IMG/VR virus record: IMGVR_UViG_3300035698_013333
Span: 1-53,150 of that record
DNA from: a virus
Direction: 5' to 3' (one strand)
Length of the DNA: 53,150 nucleotides
A program made the position numbers and the translations under genes. Of this stretch, positions 3,266 through 26,112 are shown one piece after another. Each line of letters opens with the position of its first letter. The stretch's first letter is position 1. Below the pieces are notes generated by a model. It was not told the DNA's origin and made no database searches. It saw only the letters and a program-made list of their open reading frames with translations.

Positions 3266-3429
3266 TTTTTCTTCTTGTGAGTACAAGCAGTACAAAAATC
3301 ATCGTGATACTGCATATCTTTTCCTGTCTTCCCTTCTTTGTGACATTCCCAACCGTAACATCTTCCGTTACCCTTCAGCAAACACCAAGCCGGTGGTTCA
3401 TATTCTGGTTTTTCTATCGGACTTATCAT
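3262..3429 (-). CDS. Small Cys/His-rich, probably zinc-binding protein
   Basis: A 55-aa protein with six Cys and several His (CYGWECHKEG and FCTACTHKKKK), which suggests one zinc site. Its stop overlaps the glycosyltransferase start (ATGA), supporting real translation. No named family recognised; many proteins of this size and composition occur elsewhere in the window. Confidence 0.6.
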   Translation of the reverse strand: MISPIEKPEYEPPAWCLLKGNGRCYGWECHKEGKTGKDMQYHDDFCTACTHKKKK

Positions 3430-3430
3430 T

Positions 3431-3502
3431 TTATTCTTTACATTCCCTTAAACCGTGATAAAATTTGCACTTCTGGAATGCCTTGATTTTTAAAATGGCC
3501 AT
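3431..3502 (-). CDS. Possible 23-aa Cys-containing peptide
   Basis: A short frame encoding MAILKIKAFQKCKFYHGL and ending with CKE before TAA, one base ahead of the next ATG. It has C-x-FYHG-x3-C spacing like a half zinc site. The start codon is inside a perfect 16-bp palindrome (TAAAATGGCCATTTTA). No clear ribosome-binding site. It could be a leader peptide of the next gene or chance. Confidence 0.25.
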   Translation of the reverse strand: MAILKIKAFQKCKFYHGLRECKE

Positions 3503-3514
3503 TTTAAATATTGA

Positions 3515-3546
3515 GCTTTAAGTAAGCTATCCTAAGGTCTTAAAGC
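3515..3546. repeat. Intergenic inverted repeat
   Basis: Perfect 8-bp arms GCTTTAAG and CTTAAAGC separated by 16 bases, just downstream of a methyltransferase gene. There is no T tract on the minus strand, so it is not a standard terminator; an RNA-stability or regulatory hairpin is possible. Confidence 0.4.
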
Positions 3547-3558
3547 CAGAAGCACAAA

Positions 3559-4140
3559 TTATTTTATCTTTTGTAATATTCCAATACCGCAAGGATTCGT
3601 TTTTCCGAAAATTTCGATATACCCTGCGTATTCAGGTCTCCTTTTTATTTCTTCCCACTTTTTGAAAGGACCTACTCCATGACGAATAATATCGTGAAGG
3701 ATGATTAGGCCACCTGCTCGAACAAACTTATTGTAATTATTTACATCTGACGAAACATAATCATAATCGTGTCTTCCATCGATAAATAAAACACTTGCTA
3801 ATCTCCCGTCAAGCATATTGTCAACGACTGATACAGTCTCTAAATTTTTACTATCGCCAATAACAAAATTTACTCTTGGGTCTTCTCTAAATTGTTCCTG
3901 TACTATCGGCATAAATCCCCTGTCGTTCAGGTCAATGCTGATAAGTAAACTCTGGCTAATTGAAAGTATTTCCCGCCAGAACCTCAAAGTGCCGCCTCTG
4001 AATGTTCCTATCTCAATGATGACTCTAGGAGTTACCATCCTCAAAACTGCACTCAGCATATTGTATAATTCAAATTTATTTTGAGCAGGGCCGTATGCCT
4101 GTTGTCCGAATAATTCATCAAACCTTTCTTGTGGTATCAT
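3559..4140 (-). CDS. Class I methyltransferase (Methyltransf_24 / cephalosporin hydroxylase-like)
   Basis: A 193-aa Rossmann methyltransferase with motif I IEIGTFRGGTLRFW, acidic strand end ISIDLND, and FIDGRHDYDYVSSDV followed by GGLIILHDI, the hallmark of the Methyltransf_24 / cephalosporin-hydroxylase-like group. Members act on small molecules or sugars. A paralogue with the same layout lies two genes upstream. The start overlaps the stop of the preceding methyltransferase by four bases. Confidence 0.85.
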   Translation of the reverse strand: MIPQERFDELFGQQAYGPAQNKFELYNMLSAVLRMVTPRVIIEIGTFRGGTLRFWREILSISQSLLISIDLNDRGFMPIVQEQFREDPRVNFVIGDSKNLETVSVVDNMLDGRLASVLFIDGRHDYDYVSSDVNNYNKFVRAGGLIILHDIIRHGVGPFKKWEEIKRRPEYAGYIEIFGKTNPCGIGILQKIK

Positions 4141-4817
4141 TTTACTGCTCCTTTATATCTTTTTAGTAACTCGCTATGAACATAAGAAAAAATAGATTTA
4201 CATTCCATTAACAGAGGATATGCACCTCTTTTATGTCTTTTAACAAACAAGAAAGTATTCTGTGCATACCACCAGTAATCCCCGCAACATTTTTTAATAG
4301 TATCTCTTATATCACAGACAAAATATCCTTGCTTAATAAACTTATCTATCCAGTAATCTGGAAACTGCTCATTAATATGATGACGACCACCTTGTAACGG
4401 AATCGCAGCTCCGAATAAAACTAAATCACTTATCGTAGATAAATCTTCTACGAAAGAATCTGCCCGAGACTCCGATAAATGTTCTGCGGTTTCAAGGCAG
4501 ATAGCCATATCATATTTTCTTTGGAGTCTCAAAGTATGCTCTAAATCGTGAGCAATAAACTCTTTTTCATTTATAAATAAACTCTCTTTCGGGACCCATT
4601 CACCGTCAATACCCAATAAATCTTGAATGCCGAGCTGTCCGATAACTGATAACCATTCGCCTCTGTTACATCCTATATCAATTATTGAATTCATCTGACA
4701 AGGAATACTAAAAATAAGATTAAATACCCTTTCCATTATTTCTTTTACACAGGCTATGTACTTCTCAGGCATTTTAGCAGTATAATTTTTGTCTTTATAA
4801 TATTCGGCTGTTTCCAT
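4137..4817 (-). CDS. Class I SAM-dependent methyltransferase
   Basis: A 226-aa protein with motif I IIDIGCNRGEWLS, strand 2 LLGIDGE, and CLETAEHL before strand 4, typical of the Methyltransf_23-type sugar or glycan methyltransferases. The ATG chosen is the one in TAATG overlap with the preceding stop; an in-frame upstream start would overlap that gene by another 30 bases. The C-terminal Trp/Tyr-rich loop (DYWWYAQNTF) probably shapes the substrate pocket. Confidence 0.82.
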   Translation of the reverse strand: METAEYYKDKNYTAKMPEKYIACVKEIMERVFNLIFSIPCQMNSIIDIGCNRGEWLSVIGQLGIQDLLGIDGEWVPKESLFINEKEFIAHDLEHTLRLQRKYDMAICLETAEHLSESRADSFVEDLSTISDLVLFGAAIPLQGGRHHINEQFPDYWIDKFIKQGYFVCDIRDTIKKCCGDYWWYAQNTFLFVKRHKRGAYPLLMECKSIFSYVHSELLKRYKGAVK

Positions 4818-20859: not shown

Positions 20860-21919
20860 TATCCTCTTTTTCACTTTCTTTTTGGTCACTAACATCGCTC
20901 TGTCCCTCCGCTCCCGCCGTAACATCTTCGGGTTTAGACGGTTCTGATTGCTTCTGAATTACTGTATCAAATGACAAGCCTTTTGGTAAAGGTAAACCAC
21001 AGCGGTTACAATTTTCGGTATGCTCAAAATCCTGTACAGGTTCGTTACAGATGCAGATGCCGATTTTGGAAAGGCCTTTATCCCTTAATGGCAAACCACA
21101 ATTATGACATTTATTAGATAAATGATTTTCAATATCTATTGTAGGATGCTTACAAGGACATCTCCCGACCAGTAACGGTTCTGTTGTTTCTGATAAGACC
21201 GCCATATCTATCGGTAATCCTAAAAATTCTTTTGCCAGATACAGTAACAATTTCCCTCTTTCTTCTTGAGCATCTATTTCTGGCGTTAGGAATGGCTTCA
21301 TCTTGGATAAAGCCTTTTCGATTATATCCCTTTCATCTGGGAATACCGAGAAAGCCATTATTATCGGGTCCTTTACTATTTCTTCACCGAGCCCGCCGTT
21401 TGGATTGTTAAAGTCATCTGTGTTTAGATTTGATTCCGGTAACTCGTCAAAGGATATAAATGATTCTATTCTATTCCTTTTCATTCCGGTAAGGTCTTCG
21501 ATATCTTCCATCGCTATTCCACCTTCCATAGCTTCTTTGATAGCTCCGGCCATTTTGATTGGATTCTCTTCGCCATGCTGAAAGTTATAAGCAAGCGTTG
21601 ATATAATTGCCTGTTGTCTTGCAAGTGGAGTTCCGTCCTGATTCTCCATTATGACACAGGATATCATATCTTCGTCAGGCCATACTTCCATAAATGCCCT
21701 GAGTCTATGCTCTCCATCTACAAGAACGTAAGGAGTTTCCGTTGTTTCAGGGTCTCCGGCCGGAATATCTGTTACACGGATTTTGATAGGGTCCGTAAAT
21801 CCTACCGCCCGCATATGATTGACCAATCCTCTGTACTTATCTTTCTGCATCTCCTGAGGATTATAACTATTTACGCTTAAATCGATTACTTTTACTTCTT
21901 TTATCTTTGCTTTTATCAT
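20849..21919 (-). CDS. ParB/sulfiredoxin-fold protein with C-terminal zinc motifs
   Basis: A 356-aa protein. Residues 1-100 form a ParB N-terminal domain with the diagnostic VDGEHRLRAF. A helical region follows (EDIEDLTGMKRNRIESF, KorB/HTH-like). Residues 250-310 hold two tandem Cys/His motifs, each ending CNxCGLPL (CHNCGLPLRDKG and CNRCGLPLPKG). ParB-fold proteins next to terminase genes are common in phages and may act in packaging-site choice or as nucleases. The duplicated zinc motif is uncommon. The end is acidic and disordered. Confidence 0.78.
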   Translation of the reverse strand: MIKAKIKEVKVIDLSVNSYNPQEMQKDKYRGLVNHMRAVGFTDPIKIRVTDIPAGDPETTETPYVLVDGEHRLRAFMEVWPDEDMISCVIMENQDGTPLARQQAIISTLAYNFQHGEENPIKMAGAIKEAMEGGIAMEDIEDLTGMKRNRIESFISFDELPESNLNTDDFNNPNGGLGEEIVKDPIIMAFSVFPDERDIIEKALSKMKPFLTPEIDAQEERGKLLLYLAKEFLGLPIDMAVLSETTEPLLVGRCPCKHPTIDIENHLSNKCHNCGLPLRDKGLSKIGICICNEPVQDFEHTENCNRCGLPLPKGLSFDTVIQKQSEPSKPEDVTAGAEGQSDVSDQKESEKEDNGD

Positions 21920-22515
21920 GTCTTTATGCTCTCCTTTATTTCTTCGATTCGTTTATCGAGTGTACACGCATCGTCCTTTTCTGTCTGGATTATGCCTGTT
22001 TGATTGTCTTTGCTGAACCATTCTTTTCTTTTACTGCAGACAGCTGTTTTGGATGCTTCCGTTTTCATTATTCCACATCCTGTACAGCCTGAGCTACATC
22101 CTTCCGTCTCTTCTGCTTTCTCGGCCTTTTTTCTTTCTTCCCACAACCACTCTTTGTCTGTTCCAACATCGATATGGTCCGCAACAAGCGGGGTATCAAA
22201 ATCTTTGCCTCGCATACAATCCCAAATATCGTAGCCGTGCTTTCTTAGAACATAGCTTCTTATTCCTATCCACATCTTTGCGTTGGATTCTCCCCAATCC
22301 TGTTCAGAGAAAACATTGAATTTTAATGCTGTCATAATCAAAGGCTCGCAAAATCTCCTGTCAGCACAGTCGAACATAGCCTCAATTCTCCGACCTATGG
22401 GACTTCCTTTGACATTTCTCCACCCTCTGACAACATTTTTCTCTTGCTTTTCATCCCATTGTACGTAAGAACCGTCATTGAATTTGTCGTTATAAATACG
22501 AACAAAATCAGCCAT
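21916..22515 (-). CDS. Radical-SAM protein, C-terminal part (separate frame)
   Basis: 199 aa starting MADFVRIYND. Its layout (IGRRIEAMFDCADRRFCEPL, later ADHIDVGTDKEWLWEE and CSSGCTGCG) matches the C-terminal third of the TIGR03960-type B12-binding radical-SAM family, which ends with a similar Cys cluster. The ATG overlaps the stop of the middle fragment by eight bases, so it can be translated as a separate subunit. Likely part of one original gene with the two upstream reading frames. Confidence 0.6.
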   Translation of the reverse strand: MADFVRIYNDKFNDGSYVQWDEKQEKNVVRGWRNVKGSPIGRRIEAMFDCADRRFCEPLIMTALKFNVFSEQDWGESNAKMWIGIRSYVLRKHGYDIWDCMRGKDFDTPLVADHIDVGTDKEWLWEERKKAEKAEETEGCSSGCTGCGIMKTEASKTAVCSKRKEWFSKDNQTGIIQTEKDDACTLDKRIEEIKESIKT

Positions 22516-22771
22516 TATAAGGTGACTCTTCGTAAGCACACCATTGAAACGGCGTATGTGGTTTGGGGATGAAAGGATTTACGGATAATTCAATACTCGA
22601 ATTATGCCTGATTTTCCTAGACCTATCCCACATTTCGTCCATTAAAGCATGAAGGCCGATGACATCTTCGCGTGTTTCAAAAGGTAATCCTACCATCGTC
22701 ATTACCTTTGTTTTGATGATTCCTTCCTTAATGGCCTTTTCAAATGCTTCCCAGAACGTGGCATCTCCCAA
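22508..22771 (-). pseudogene. Radical-SAM protein, middle part (out of frame)
   Basis: An 87-codon frame containing VMTMVGLPFETREDVIGLHA and SVNPFIPKPHTPFQW, the second half of the radical-SAM barrel of the same family. It joins the N-terminal part after a run of four A: with three A the reading would pass straight from RRVV into NKHLGDATFW. Only a TTG start is available and no ribosome-binding site is seen, so it is a frameshifted continuation or needs recoding. Confidence 0.65.
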
Positions 22772-22775
22772 ATGT

Positions 22776-23915
22776 TTATTTTACAACTCTTCGCATCCGG
22801 CCGGTTGCTGATTCCAAAGCAAAACAGACAGAGCGTTTCTTCCGGTGGTCATCCCAAGTACGGACAAACTGGTCTATTCTCTCAGAATATCCGTCATATT
22901 GGATTCCTAATTCGATTGCGTAATCCCTTGCCTCGTTGTATCTTGAGTAGTCCGTTGGAGTCAAGCCCATCATCCGTACTGTACCCATATCTTTTCTAGC
23001 GAGAATGGCATCCTTAACACCCTGAAAATTCCTTTCCCGATACGGCTTATACCACGAAAACGGCGCACAGAATCGACAACCGTGAACGCAACCCCTCGTG
23101 ACTTCTACATCCTTTGATAAATATAGACGGTCACGGGCAATATTTTTATTGTAATCAACTATTGTGTAATTATATTTTGCATCTGAAATATCAACTTTTT
23201 GCCAAGCTATTGAATCAGGCGCTTCGTTCCAGAGCTTTTTCATTCCCGCGAATCTTTTGTGGGAATCAAAAGTATTCTCGTAGAACATTGGCACATAACA
23301 GCCCGATATTTTTGATACTGCTTTTAAAATCTCCACTTTCTTTTTGCCTTCTTTCTTCAACCCTCTGATTGTATTGACGATATGAGGTACGTGTTCTTCT
23401 CCTTCGCCAATAAACATCAAGTCAAAAATTGGAGCTAGGATTTCAGGAGCTGTATTTAATACACCGCCTGACATGATGATAGGCCATCTTTCATCCCTGT
23501 CTTTGTACTGGAATGGAATTCCGGCATAAGAAAGCATATGAATCAAATTAAAAGCGTTTGGAGTGAAGAAATAAGAAAAGCCGACAACGTCAAATTCCCT
23601 TAAAGGAATTTTTGTGCCATAGCCGAATAAAGGGATTTTATTTGTGCGTAATGCTCTTCTGACAGCTGACGGCGGGAGATAAGAATAATCCACACAAACG
23701 TCATTAAGCCGTTTCAGAACATTATAAATAATATGAACGCCCATCATTCCCGCACCGGTAAAATACGGAACACAATGCGCTAAACAAAATTTGAAGTCTT
23801 TAGATTCACAGGGAATATCAACATCGAACATTCCTTTTATCCCTGTGTCTAATCGGTCACCTTGCATTTTGTGACCTTTAATTACGGCCTTAAAAGCCTT
23901 TGCATCTATTTTCAC
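22776..23915 (-). CDS. B12-binding-like radical-SAM protein, N-terminal part
   Basis: 379 aa from a GTG with AAGGAG six bases upstream (better than an earlier TTG). Residues 1-200 are a cobalamin-binding-like Rossmann domain (GMMGVHIIYNVL, IPLREFDVVGFSY, FIGEGEEHVP). The [4Fe-4S]-binding CVHGCRFC is at 276-283. The frame stops at ATGRMRRVVK inside the barrel and continues in the next frame. Function of the family is not established. It is the first gene after a strong promoter and leads the packaging genes. Confidence 0.8.
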   Translation of the reverse strand: MKIDAKAFKAVIKGHKMQGDRLDTGIKGMFDVDIPCESKDFKFCLAHCVPYFTGAGMMGVHIIYNVLKRLNDVCVDYSYLPPSAVRRALRTNKIPLFGYGTKIPLREFDVVGFSYFFTPNAFNLIHMLSYAGIPFQYKDRDERWPIIMSGGVLNTAPEILAPIFDLMFIGEGEEHVPHIVNTIRGLKKEGKKKVEILKAVSKISGCYVPMFYENTFDSHKRFAGMKKLWNEAPDSIAWQKVDISDAKYNYTIVDYNKNIARDRLYLSKDVEVTRGCVHGCRFCAPFSWYKPYRERNFQGVKDAILARKDMGTVRMMGLTPTDYSRYNEARDYAIELGIQYDGYSERIDQFVRTWDDHRKKRSVCFALESATGRMRRVVK

Positions 23916-23964
23916 TCTTCTCTCCTTCAGTCGAAGAAGGAAGGCAGACGTTCCCAACAATTAC

Positions 23965-24218: not shown

Positions 24219-24364
24219 TGTCTCCGGCAGAGACTCGAACTCTGCGATACCGACAGCCTCTCGCTAGTGAACCAACTAGTATAATGCTCACATCATAGCT
24301 ATGTCGTTTGCCGTTTCCTTCTTGACTTTCAGACTTTCAGACTTTTCCGCTTGTCCACAGAGAC
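24219..24364 (-). tRNA. tRNA-like RNA with a long insert replacing the anticodon arm
   Basis: Acceptor strands GTCTCTG (24358-24364) and CGGAGAC (24220-24226) pair over 7 bp with one wobble. TG and a 3-bp D stem GAC/GTC with a GG-containing D loop follow. The T arm is CAGAG-TTCGAGT-CTCTG. One C is unpaired between T stem and acceptor. Between D and T arms are about 95 bases instead of 25-45, with no standard anticodon stem; they contain a tandem CTGAAAGT, palindrome CATAGCTATG and hairpin CTAGT/ACTAG. Total 146 nt, so a degenerate, interrupted or specialised tRNA. Confidence 0.45.
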
Positions 24365-24366
24365 AT

Positions 24367-24537
24367 TTATAATATTTTTTCTCCCGCATCTACTTCTATT
24401 TTATGCTTGTCGTTTAAGTCATCGTAAACTAAATCATCATCCTGTATAAATGTCATAGCAAGTTTATCCGTCAATAATTTTATGAAATTATCAGCCTGTT
24501 CTTTATTTAATAAACCATTTTTATTTAATTTATTCAT
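24367..24537 (-). CDS. Small acidic protein, unknown
   Basis: A 56-aa protein beginning MNKLNKNGLLNKEQADNF with an acidic middle (QDDDLVYDDLND). It ends three bases before the tRNA-like RNA begins and has no good ribosome-binding site. It is the only coding frame I see in the RNA island. No family recognised. Confidence 0.5.
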   Translation of the reverse strand: MNKLNKNGLLNKEQADNFIKLLTDKLAMTFIQDDDLVYDDLNDKHKIEVDAGEKIL

Positions 24538-24540
24538 ATT

Positions 24541-24712
24541 ATTTTAACGATGAGGGAGGGCTGAGACATTCCTACTTTTTAGCAATCCTCGGAAGCCGTT
24601 AACACCCTCGTTTTAGCTATGTCATCGTGAACCATGAATATTAGTCGGACTATTCTGCAGAATGTTTACCGAATGCTAATATCTTCTAGTAACCACGCCT
24701 CACCCAATATTA
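24541..24712 (-). ncRNA. Structured intergenic RNA candidate
   Basis: No coding frame. It can fold into a long hairpin at 24638-24682 (ATATTAG/CTAATAT, then TCGG/CCGA, then palindrome ATTCTGCAGAAT) and a second stem pairing GAGGG near 24556-24560 with CCCTC at 24605-24609. It lies directly after the tRNA-like gene at 24713. I do not recognise the family; it may be a processed part of the same transcript. Confidence 0.35.
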
Positions 24713-24796
24713 TGTGGCGGGTAGGAATCGAACCTACGACAGGATTAATTCCGAGTTTATAGCATGCATCCCGTTCTACCACTGAACAACCGCCAC
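24713..24796 (-). tRNA. tRNA-like gene with an enlarged anticodon loop
   Basis: Perfect 7-bp acceptor GTGGCGG/CCGCCAC, discriminator A, D arm GTTC-AGTGGTA-GAAC, T arm GTAGG-TTCGATT-CCTAC and a four-base variable loop, all canonical. The anticodon stem can form only as GGAT/ATCC (plus a G.A mismatch) and encloses about 20 bases instead of 7, so no anticodon can be assigned. Length is 84 nt. No CCA is encoded. Begins at the base after the upstream gene stop. Confidence 0.65.
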
Positions 24797-25459
24797 TTAT
24801 CCCATTTTCTTTACTTTTATTTCTTCTGGAAATTTAATACTACAAACCTTTATCGACAAATCATATACAGTATCACTTGGAGTAGGAAATTGTCTGCATA
24901 CGATAGGCCTTTTCTCGTATCTTTTGCATTTATTTGTTTTAAGATTTAAATATTTACAGGGTTTATTCATAACTATCATTTTTTTCTCGCCTACTTTAAT
25001 AACATCATATCCCATCCCTATCATATATTTATCATTTACTTTAGCTGATAATTCTCCGACACAAGAAAACCTACAGCAATAAGCCTTGCATTTTTTAAAA
25101 TCACATTTCCCTTTTCTTTTATAATGCTTATCTAATTGCTTTGGTGTCGAATACCTTACAAAATCTGATATCATTTTCCCTCCGTTTATTATATTTTCTG
25201 CTTCCTTCTCTTCTCCAATTAATTCAATAGTTCCTAGTACTAAACCGATTGTAGTTTCGTTTTCCATAAATTTAACTATATCTCTTAAACAATCTTCCTC
25301 AAAAACCATATCACTTTCAGGAAAGAAAGAATATTTTCTCCACGGCCCATACCATTTTATTTTCCCTATCCGTTCATTTGTATCTTTATTTATAATATCC
25401 CAAATATTTGTTTTAGGATTCTGTTTATCAGCTAATATAAAATCTATCCACTTAGACAT
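24797..25459 (-). CDS. YkgJ-type Cys-cluster protein fused to a phage N-terminal domain
   Basis: A 220-aa protein. Residues 1-75 resemble a small phage domain (KIKWYGPWRKYSFFPESDM, LRDIVKFM). From residue about 105 it has the Cys pattern of YkgJ-type putative zinc- or iron-chelating proteins: CDFKKCKAYCCRFSC, then NKPCKYLN, NKCKRYEKRPIVCRQFP. YkgJ members have been linked to metal binding and protein modification, function uncertain. The stop touches the tRNA-like gene. Confidence 0.72.
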   Translation of the reverse strand: MSKWIDFILADKQNPKTNIWDIINKDTNERIGKIKWYGPWRKYSFFPESDMVFEEDCLRDIVKFMENETTIGLVLGTIELIGEEKEAENIINGGKMISDFVRYSTPKQLDKHYKRKGKCDFKKCKAYCCRFSCVGELSAKVNDKYMIGMGYDVIKVGEKKMIVMNKPCKYLNLKTNKCKRYEKRPIVCRQFPTPSDTVYDLSIKVCSIKFPEEIKVKKMG

Positions 25460-25851: not shown

Positions 25852-26112
25852 TTATCGAGCAGGCTTATCAACACTCCCTATTTCTTTTTCGTCAAAAGAA
25901 GGAACTTTCATTACAGGCTTTTTGGATATTATTTTTAATCTTTTAACATCAAACCAATAAGACTCTCTATCTGGTTTTCCGTCTTTAGCAAATGGAGAAA
26001 CCAGACCTTGTACACATCCGAATAAATCAAAGCAGATTGATGTAACAACACCTTTAGTCCCTGTAACTTTATCCTCTACTTTCAAACCTAGAAATTTCAT
26101 GTACTTATCCAC
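25852..26112 (-). CDS. Small SH3/KOW-like phage protein
   Basis: An 86-aa protein with FLGLKVEDKVTGTKGVVTSI, FDLFGCVQGLVSP and YWFDVKRL, a pattern common in small phage proteins of unknown function with a KOW/SH3-like beta barrel. Overlaps the zinc-ribbon gene upstream by 8 bp. Confidence 0.65.
   Translation of the reverse strand: MDKYMKFLGLKVEDKVTGTKGVVTSICFDLFGCVQGLVSPFAKDGKPDRESYWFDVKRLKIISKKPVMKVPSFDEKEIGSVDKPAR

Follow-up and report, generated by a model that had tools for sequence, protein, structure and literature searches.

A family of phage RNAs with a tRNA-Leu-like body and a conserved two-helix domain in place of the anticodon arm

Transfer-messenger RNA (tmRNA; ssrA, RF00023) has a transfer RNA (tRNA)-like domain consisting of an acceptor and a T arm, in which the anticodon arm is absent, a non-tRNA module occupies its place and the synthetase ignores the anticodon. 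E. coli tRNA-Leu is still leucylated after loss of both its anticodon arm and its variable arm, the determinants being A73, A15-U48, G18G19 and A20a (review PMC9976931). Among viral RNAs, the tRNA-like structures (TLS) of plant viruses imitate tRNAs and may be aminoacylated, and phage tRNAs with altered anticodon loops are described in the available text of PMC10264068. Here we describe element A, an RNA of 146 nucleotides (nt) encoded on the minus strand at 24219-24364 of the IMG/VR virus record IMGVR_UViG_3300035698_013333 (53,150 nucleotides, positions 1 to 53,150, hereafter called the window), in which a tRNA-Leu-like body carries a two-helix domain where the anticodon arm should be, together with the neighbouring element B, a tRNA body with an enlarged anticodon loop.

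Like the tRNA-like domain of tmRNA, element A has an acceptor and a T arm, no anticodon arm and a non-tRNA module in its stead, yet the RNAs of its family are 105-165 nt long, against about 350 nt for tmRNA, and they have no common tag frame, a Leu-like D arm and an intact elbow. With bacterial and phage tRNA-Leu it shares the UGGCGGAAUUGGUAGACGC type of D arm and, in most members, U8, A14, A15-U48, G18G19, A20a and A73, but it has neither an anticodon arm nor a class II variable arm, the conserved two-helix domain being found instead. Whereas plant-virus TLS are the 3' ends of RNA genomes, element A lies at an intergenic locus of a DNA phage and has a true cloverleaf body. The altered phage tRNAs of PMC10264068 are similar to element B in being phage-encoded with a non-standard anticodon region; as far as the available text of that source goes they keep an anticodon, which is missing from A, while the loop of B measures 22 nt.

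Element A and its homologues

A sequence-only reading of the window had pointed out two elements with paired acceptor, D and T arms. Both are real and lie on the minus strand, B being recognised by the Rfam tRNA model and A by a covariance model of its homologues. Scanning 2.9 million viral contigs with patterns aimed at different parts of A yielded ten distinct IMG/VR sequences from uncultured phages (the window, L017, L036, L084, L081, L126, L131, L133, L135 and L145); since the patterns are strict, diverged members may be missed. The scans converged on one set, members found via one part carrying the other parts too, and the L126 and L131 sequences each recur in more contigs from other metagenomes. 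The covariance model, R2, was made from eight members, leaving out the window and its nearest relative (contig L002/L017). This held-out model matches the window copy at 52.3 bits (E = 1.2e-10) with ends at exactly 24219-24364, in agreement with the 146 nt first proposed, and it matches the window and L017 copies at E about 1e-10 to 4e-11. Folded alone, the window element is of unremarkable stability (z = -0.77), and its reality therefore rests on the homologues; ARAGORN reports no tRNA anywhere in the window, and A of the window gets no score in the Rfam search. The covariance search that had been recommended for tRNA, tmRNA and group I introns thus succeeded for B with the tRNA model and left A unscored, and it gave no tmRNA or group I match beyond a chance-level RF00023 hit of 7.1 bits, the only one in the window region, which lies elsewhere than A.

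Alignment A2 is gapless, its variable loops and single bulges having been trimmed by hand (one G of the L135 variable inner part was omitted in error, which leaves the counted pairs unaffected). With a cloverleaf and two extra helices, 98.3% of its cells are paired and both-sided changes occur in 13 of 24 pairs; the covariation score of 0.597 compares with 0.154 on shuffling (0/500) and 0.07-0.10 with slid partners. All seven acceptor pairs covary, as do 2 of 3 in the D stem and 4 of 5 in the T stem, and these stems are 97-100% paired with compensatory changes in the family. Between the window and L002/L017 the differences in the acceptor stem are paired changes, and islands including GGCAAACGACAUAGC and GAGAGGnUGUCGGUA are identical. 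Acceptor and T-arm pairing, whose loss in homologues would have spoken against the element, is thus kept, and the alignment shows selection to maintain the three stems (acceptor, D and T) together with the elbow between D loop and T loop. Decaying tRNA pseudogenes would fit the failure of ARAGORN to report any of the A members in the loci to which it was applied, yet compensatory changes in all stems and a near-invariant inserted domain across ten phages make this explanation extremely improbable; the sequence-only reading had already called simple decay of one gene less likely.

Within the window, and always on the minus strand, the 7-base-pair (bp) acceptor stem joins its 5' strand GUCUCUG (24358-24364) to CGGAGAC (24220-24226), which with the discriminator A73 is read directly from 24219-24226; CCA is not encoded. 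The D arm (24340-24355) consists of a 3-bp stem, GAC/GUC, and the loop AAGCGGAAAA with A14, G15, G18, G19 and A20a, as supported by D-stem covariation and a table of tertiary positions. The T arm (24227-24245), GCAGAG-UUCGAGU-CUCUGC, has a 6-bp stem, one pair more than usual, and six relatives have a single bulged base there.

The anticodon arm is absent from all ten members, with no remnant in any of them, and a two-helix domain follows directly on the D stem and stops just short of the T stem. Its order is UGAAA, the P1 hairpin (loop of 4-20 nt), AAA, P2 around a variable stem-loop (9-58 nt), GAGAGG on the 3' side, and GUA. In the window, the 5' part (24301-24339) comprises UGAAA, the P1 hairpin GUC/GGC with a 19-nt variable loop, AAA and the P2 5' strand CGACAU, and contains invariant columns of A2; the variable stem-loop region within P2 (24263-24300) measures 38 nt; and the 3' part (24248-24262), GAGAGG, the P2 3' strand CUGUCG and GUA, is nearly invariant in the family. 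About 35 bases of the domain are invariant (CUGAAAGUC...GGCAAACGACAU...AGAGGnUGUCGGUA), a conservation that far exceeds that of the tRNA body and that holds although the member-finding patterns probed different parts of the domain. P1 (GUC/GGC) is invariant, as are five of the six pairs of P2 (CGACAU/AUGUCG), the last of which varies; both helices are supported by this invariance, by complementarity, by the variable hairpins nested inside them and by single-sequence folds such as that of L145, where a plain fold (z = -3.4) yields P1, P2, the inner hairpin and the acceptor and T arms. Likenesses to ribosomal RNA (GAGAGGA to the sarcin-ricin loop, GAUGUCGG to the peptidyl-transferase ring) were considered and rejected, 7- and 8-mers being in common with E. 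coli 16S and 23S no more often than in shuffled cores (p about 0.2).

The position of the domain bears on the proposal that these elements are interrupted tRNAs from which an insert is spliced out. The insert does sit between the D and T arms, and phages have large anticodon-loop inserts (Caulobacter phage Cr30), but in A it runs from D stem to T stem, and since no bases are left over for an anticodon arm, splicing cannot recreate it. Group I intron models gave no hit in L131, L145 or the window region, and in B the removal of 15 contiguous bases leaves U33 in no register. We therefore regard an interrupted tRNA as highly improbable. The term tRNA mimic, also offered by the sequence-only reading, does suit A: in ten phages compensatory changes preserve its body, and none of the ten copies has an anticodon arm. 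Taken together, the sequences show that the family has lost the anticodon arm and that its tRNA body and replacement domain are both under selection.

Leucine identity and possible roles of the tRNA body

L131 and L145 match the tRNA model RF00005 (34.4 bits for one and 31.2 bits for the other, cut-off 29) with an insertion at the place of the anticodon arm, and in an Rfam search of these two members no other model reaches its cut-off. A14, G18G19, A20a, U54, U55 and A58 are present in all ten members and U8 in nine. Six have a D arm of the tRNA-Leu type; at 15-48, six carry A-U and two G-C; and the discriminator is A73 in six and U73 in four. These positions mark the body as tRNA-Leu-like, with most determinants of leucyl-tRNA synthetase (LeuRS) apparently kept. 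Because E. coli tRNA-Leu without anticodon and variable arms is leucylated via determinants that A largely keeps, a chargeable non-decoding RNA is plausible.

We give a roughly even chance to the reading that element A is a non-decoding effector RNA with a tRNA body, acting in the manner of tmRNA yet distinct from it. On this reading, A would derive from a leucine tRNA that abandoned decoding. Host tRNA-processing enzymes would excise it, CCA would be added, and it would be leucylated, as LeuRS reads A73, A15-U48, G18G19, A20a and D/T-loop contacts and requires neither anticodon nor variable arm. The conserved domain, standing where the anticodon arm was, may be the working part, and it might bind a conserved host target (the ribosome, a translation factor or a defence protein), acting without a codon like the non-tRNA part of tmRNA; the role of the domain and its target are the least certain of these steps.

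Several observations weigh against such a reading. U73, found in four of the ten members, should lower leucylation, and CCA is encoded in only two. The minimum free energy (MFE) fold of the window element gives just 13 of 25 consensus pairs, and the invariance of P1 and P2 means that covariation cannot prove either helix. In L036 and L084, as read by eye, element A is apparently nested in the D loop of another, larger tRNA-like structure, an arrangement that makes a free tRNA-like 3' end doubtful there. The larger structure has D stems GUG/CAC in L036 and GCG/CGC in L084, the T loop UGCAAAU in both and, in L036, the acceptor AUAUGAGG/CCUCAUAU; the nested arrangement is at 1230-1570 of L036 and on the minus strand of L084, with extra hairpins in both D loops.

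Caulobacter phage Cr30 (L150, about 1990-2160; 81130-81300) has an unannotated tRNA-Leu with an anticodon-loop insert of ~80 nt that contains a UGCAAAU hairpin as in L036 and L084. In the Vibrio phage D479 isolate (L221), two tRNA-like sequences (223065-223189 and 223660-223766), one of them CCA-ended, have ~45-70 nt replacing the normal anticodon arm.

The discriminator, CCA and nesting data would also fit a body that serves only as a scaffold for processing or stability, the domain being an independent catalytic, sensing or protein-binding RNA: all three argue against a need for charging, and the domain is far more conserved than the body. A scaffold, however, would not need A20a, G18G19 and the 15-48 pair in nearly all members, and L131 and L145 match no ribozyme or riboswitch in Rfam. 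We consider this alternative unlikely. A similarly low probability attaches to a decoy, an RNA that would soak up a host factor acting on tRNAs via the acceptor, elbow or CCA end and that, having no anticodon, could not be cut by anticodon nucleases. A does retain the parts of a tRNA outside the anticodon arm, and there is precedent in phage tRNAs that counter tRNA-targeting defences, including via altered anticodon loops, according to the available portions of PMC10264068 and PMC11555353. A decoy of the body alone, however, needs no ~35 invariant bases in a new domain, and to divert anticodon nucleases an RNA would have to carry an anticodon.

The sequence-only reading had also raised kinship with tmRNA. 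GCA AAC GAC opens many tmRNA tags. A shrunken ssrA whose tag starts at GCAAACGAC would account for the likeness of that motif to such an opening, and the tRNA-like domain of tmRNA, too, is defined by having an acceptor and a T arm but no anticodon arm. Against this, L131 and L145, two of the clearest members, have no RF00023 match up to E = 10, and frames from the GCA of GCAAACGAC stop at unrelated places or run on without a nearby stop. G3:U70 is encoded in one member (L081) and missing from nine, and the body is Leu-like and not Ala-like. The unshared frames and the absent RF00023 match led us to reject a tag from GCAAACGAC, and we judge a reduced tmRNA very improbable.

Distribution, element B and the surrounding locus

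With the sole exception of the window and L002/L017, neighbour genes are unrelated across the family, and a gene neighbour common to all members was looked for and not found; as the neighbours differ between phages, the RNA is kept independently of its context. Homologues of A and B are adjacent on L002/L017, a contig reached via a relative of the window radical-SAM gene. L004 and L005, relatives of the window's neighbouring gene, are without A. The hosts of A-bearing phages are probably diverse, because for one or two member proteins the closest relatives among isolates fall in differing phages (a Shewanella phage, 63%; Flavobacterium phages, 33%; a Rhodobacter phage, 38%), those of the window polymerase being a Moorella phage and gut phages (34%). 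Within their limits of sensitivity, searches of 85,000 prokaryote genomes and of isolate phages turned up no element A: a pattern scan of GTDB genomes returned 10 stretches, chance-like on inspection and none with the remainder of the element; in isolate phages, blastn gave no match to the core and, with L131 as query, partial matches only, e.g. to tRNA arms; and four related isolate genomes examined do not have it. Contig L133 carries, besides element A, a HEARO RNA (RF02033, 95.5 bits) at 3639-3882. Three phages encode small proteins of PHROG 16275/37639 (function unassigned) near A (window 25852-26112, L002 4142-4393, L126 4497-4760), and the set of open reading frames (ORFs) searched held no further case.

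Element B (24713-24796, minus strand) matches the Rfam tRNA model at 47.5 bits (gathering 29), with stems of 7 bp (acceptor), 4 bp (D, in an arm of the tRNA-Gly type) and 5 bp (T). Its expanded anticodon loop, GCAUGCUAUAAACUCGGAAUUA (24746-24767, minus strand), was originally put at about 20 bases on a weak GGAT/ATCC stem; the size was nearly right, at 22 nt, but the stem is less weak than supposed, having 5 bp (GGGAU/AUCCU) and being perfect (GGGAU/AUCCC) in the L002 homologue (4566-4650, 43.1 bits). There, too, the loop has 22 nt, 18 of them identical, and no other IMG/VR contig matches it in a tRNA context. We consider B best described as a separate, lineage-specific tRNA with an enlarged, conserved anticodon loop, seen only in two related phages. 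A belongs to a broad phage family, and by this distribution of homologues the notion that the two were copies of one thing falls away. In a related phage, L003, a tRNA-Leu-like element whose anticodon loop has 28 nt (3438-3546) lies upstream of the radical-SAM gene, beside a weak tRNA-like match at 3323-3428.

The structured block and small gene noted earlier between the two elements are also present. The block (24540-24712, minus strand; MFE -42.3 kcal/mol) lies between B and A and has CUGCAGAA..GUCCGA, AACGAGGG, GCUAAAA and GCCCUCCCUCA in common with L002 4800-4920 (alignment A3). This conservation is partial; the block is a third structured RNA kept in the window and L002, where its order relative to A and B differs. 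A pairing between the B loop and the block seen by eye in the window (CUCGGAA with UUCCGAG) was discarded, as it is absent in L002. Between the block and A lies an ORF of 56 amino acids (24367-24537, minus strand), for which family searches gave no convincing match.

This description of the locus is based on one metagenome-derived window of 53 kb, which belongs to a tailed bacterial phage by its genes for portal, terminase, DnaB and DNA polymerase. The RNA island is flanked by a gene with a CxxCxxCC domain (24797-25459) and by the radical-SAM gene (22776-23960). Over 21916-23960 the latter is broken into three ORFs (394, 87 and 207 amino acids), against a single ORF of 671 amino acids in L002/L017, a state due to frameshifts or assembly errors.

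Significance for phage tRNA biology

The usual explanations for phage tRNAs, codon supply and the replacement of cleaved host tRNAs, both require an anticodon, and the element A family, which was missed by ARAGORN, the tRNA finder used here, fits neither. We tentatively propose, while judging it somewhat more apt to be wrong than right, that these RNAs form a new phage-specific class: a tRNA-Leu whose anticodon arm was exchanged for an invariant two-helix effector domain, and which would be leucylated and would enter or block the translation or defence machinery independently of a codon, as a viral analogue of tmRNA that arose separately. Should element A act in the way tmRNA does, it would join tmRNA as the second example of a multi-domain translational tool made out of a tRNA, this time in a virus.
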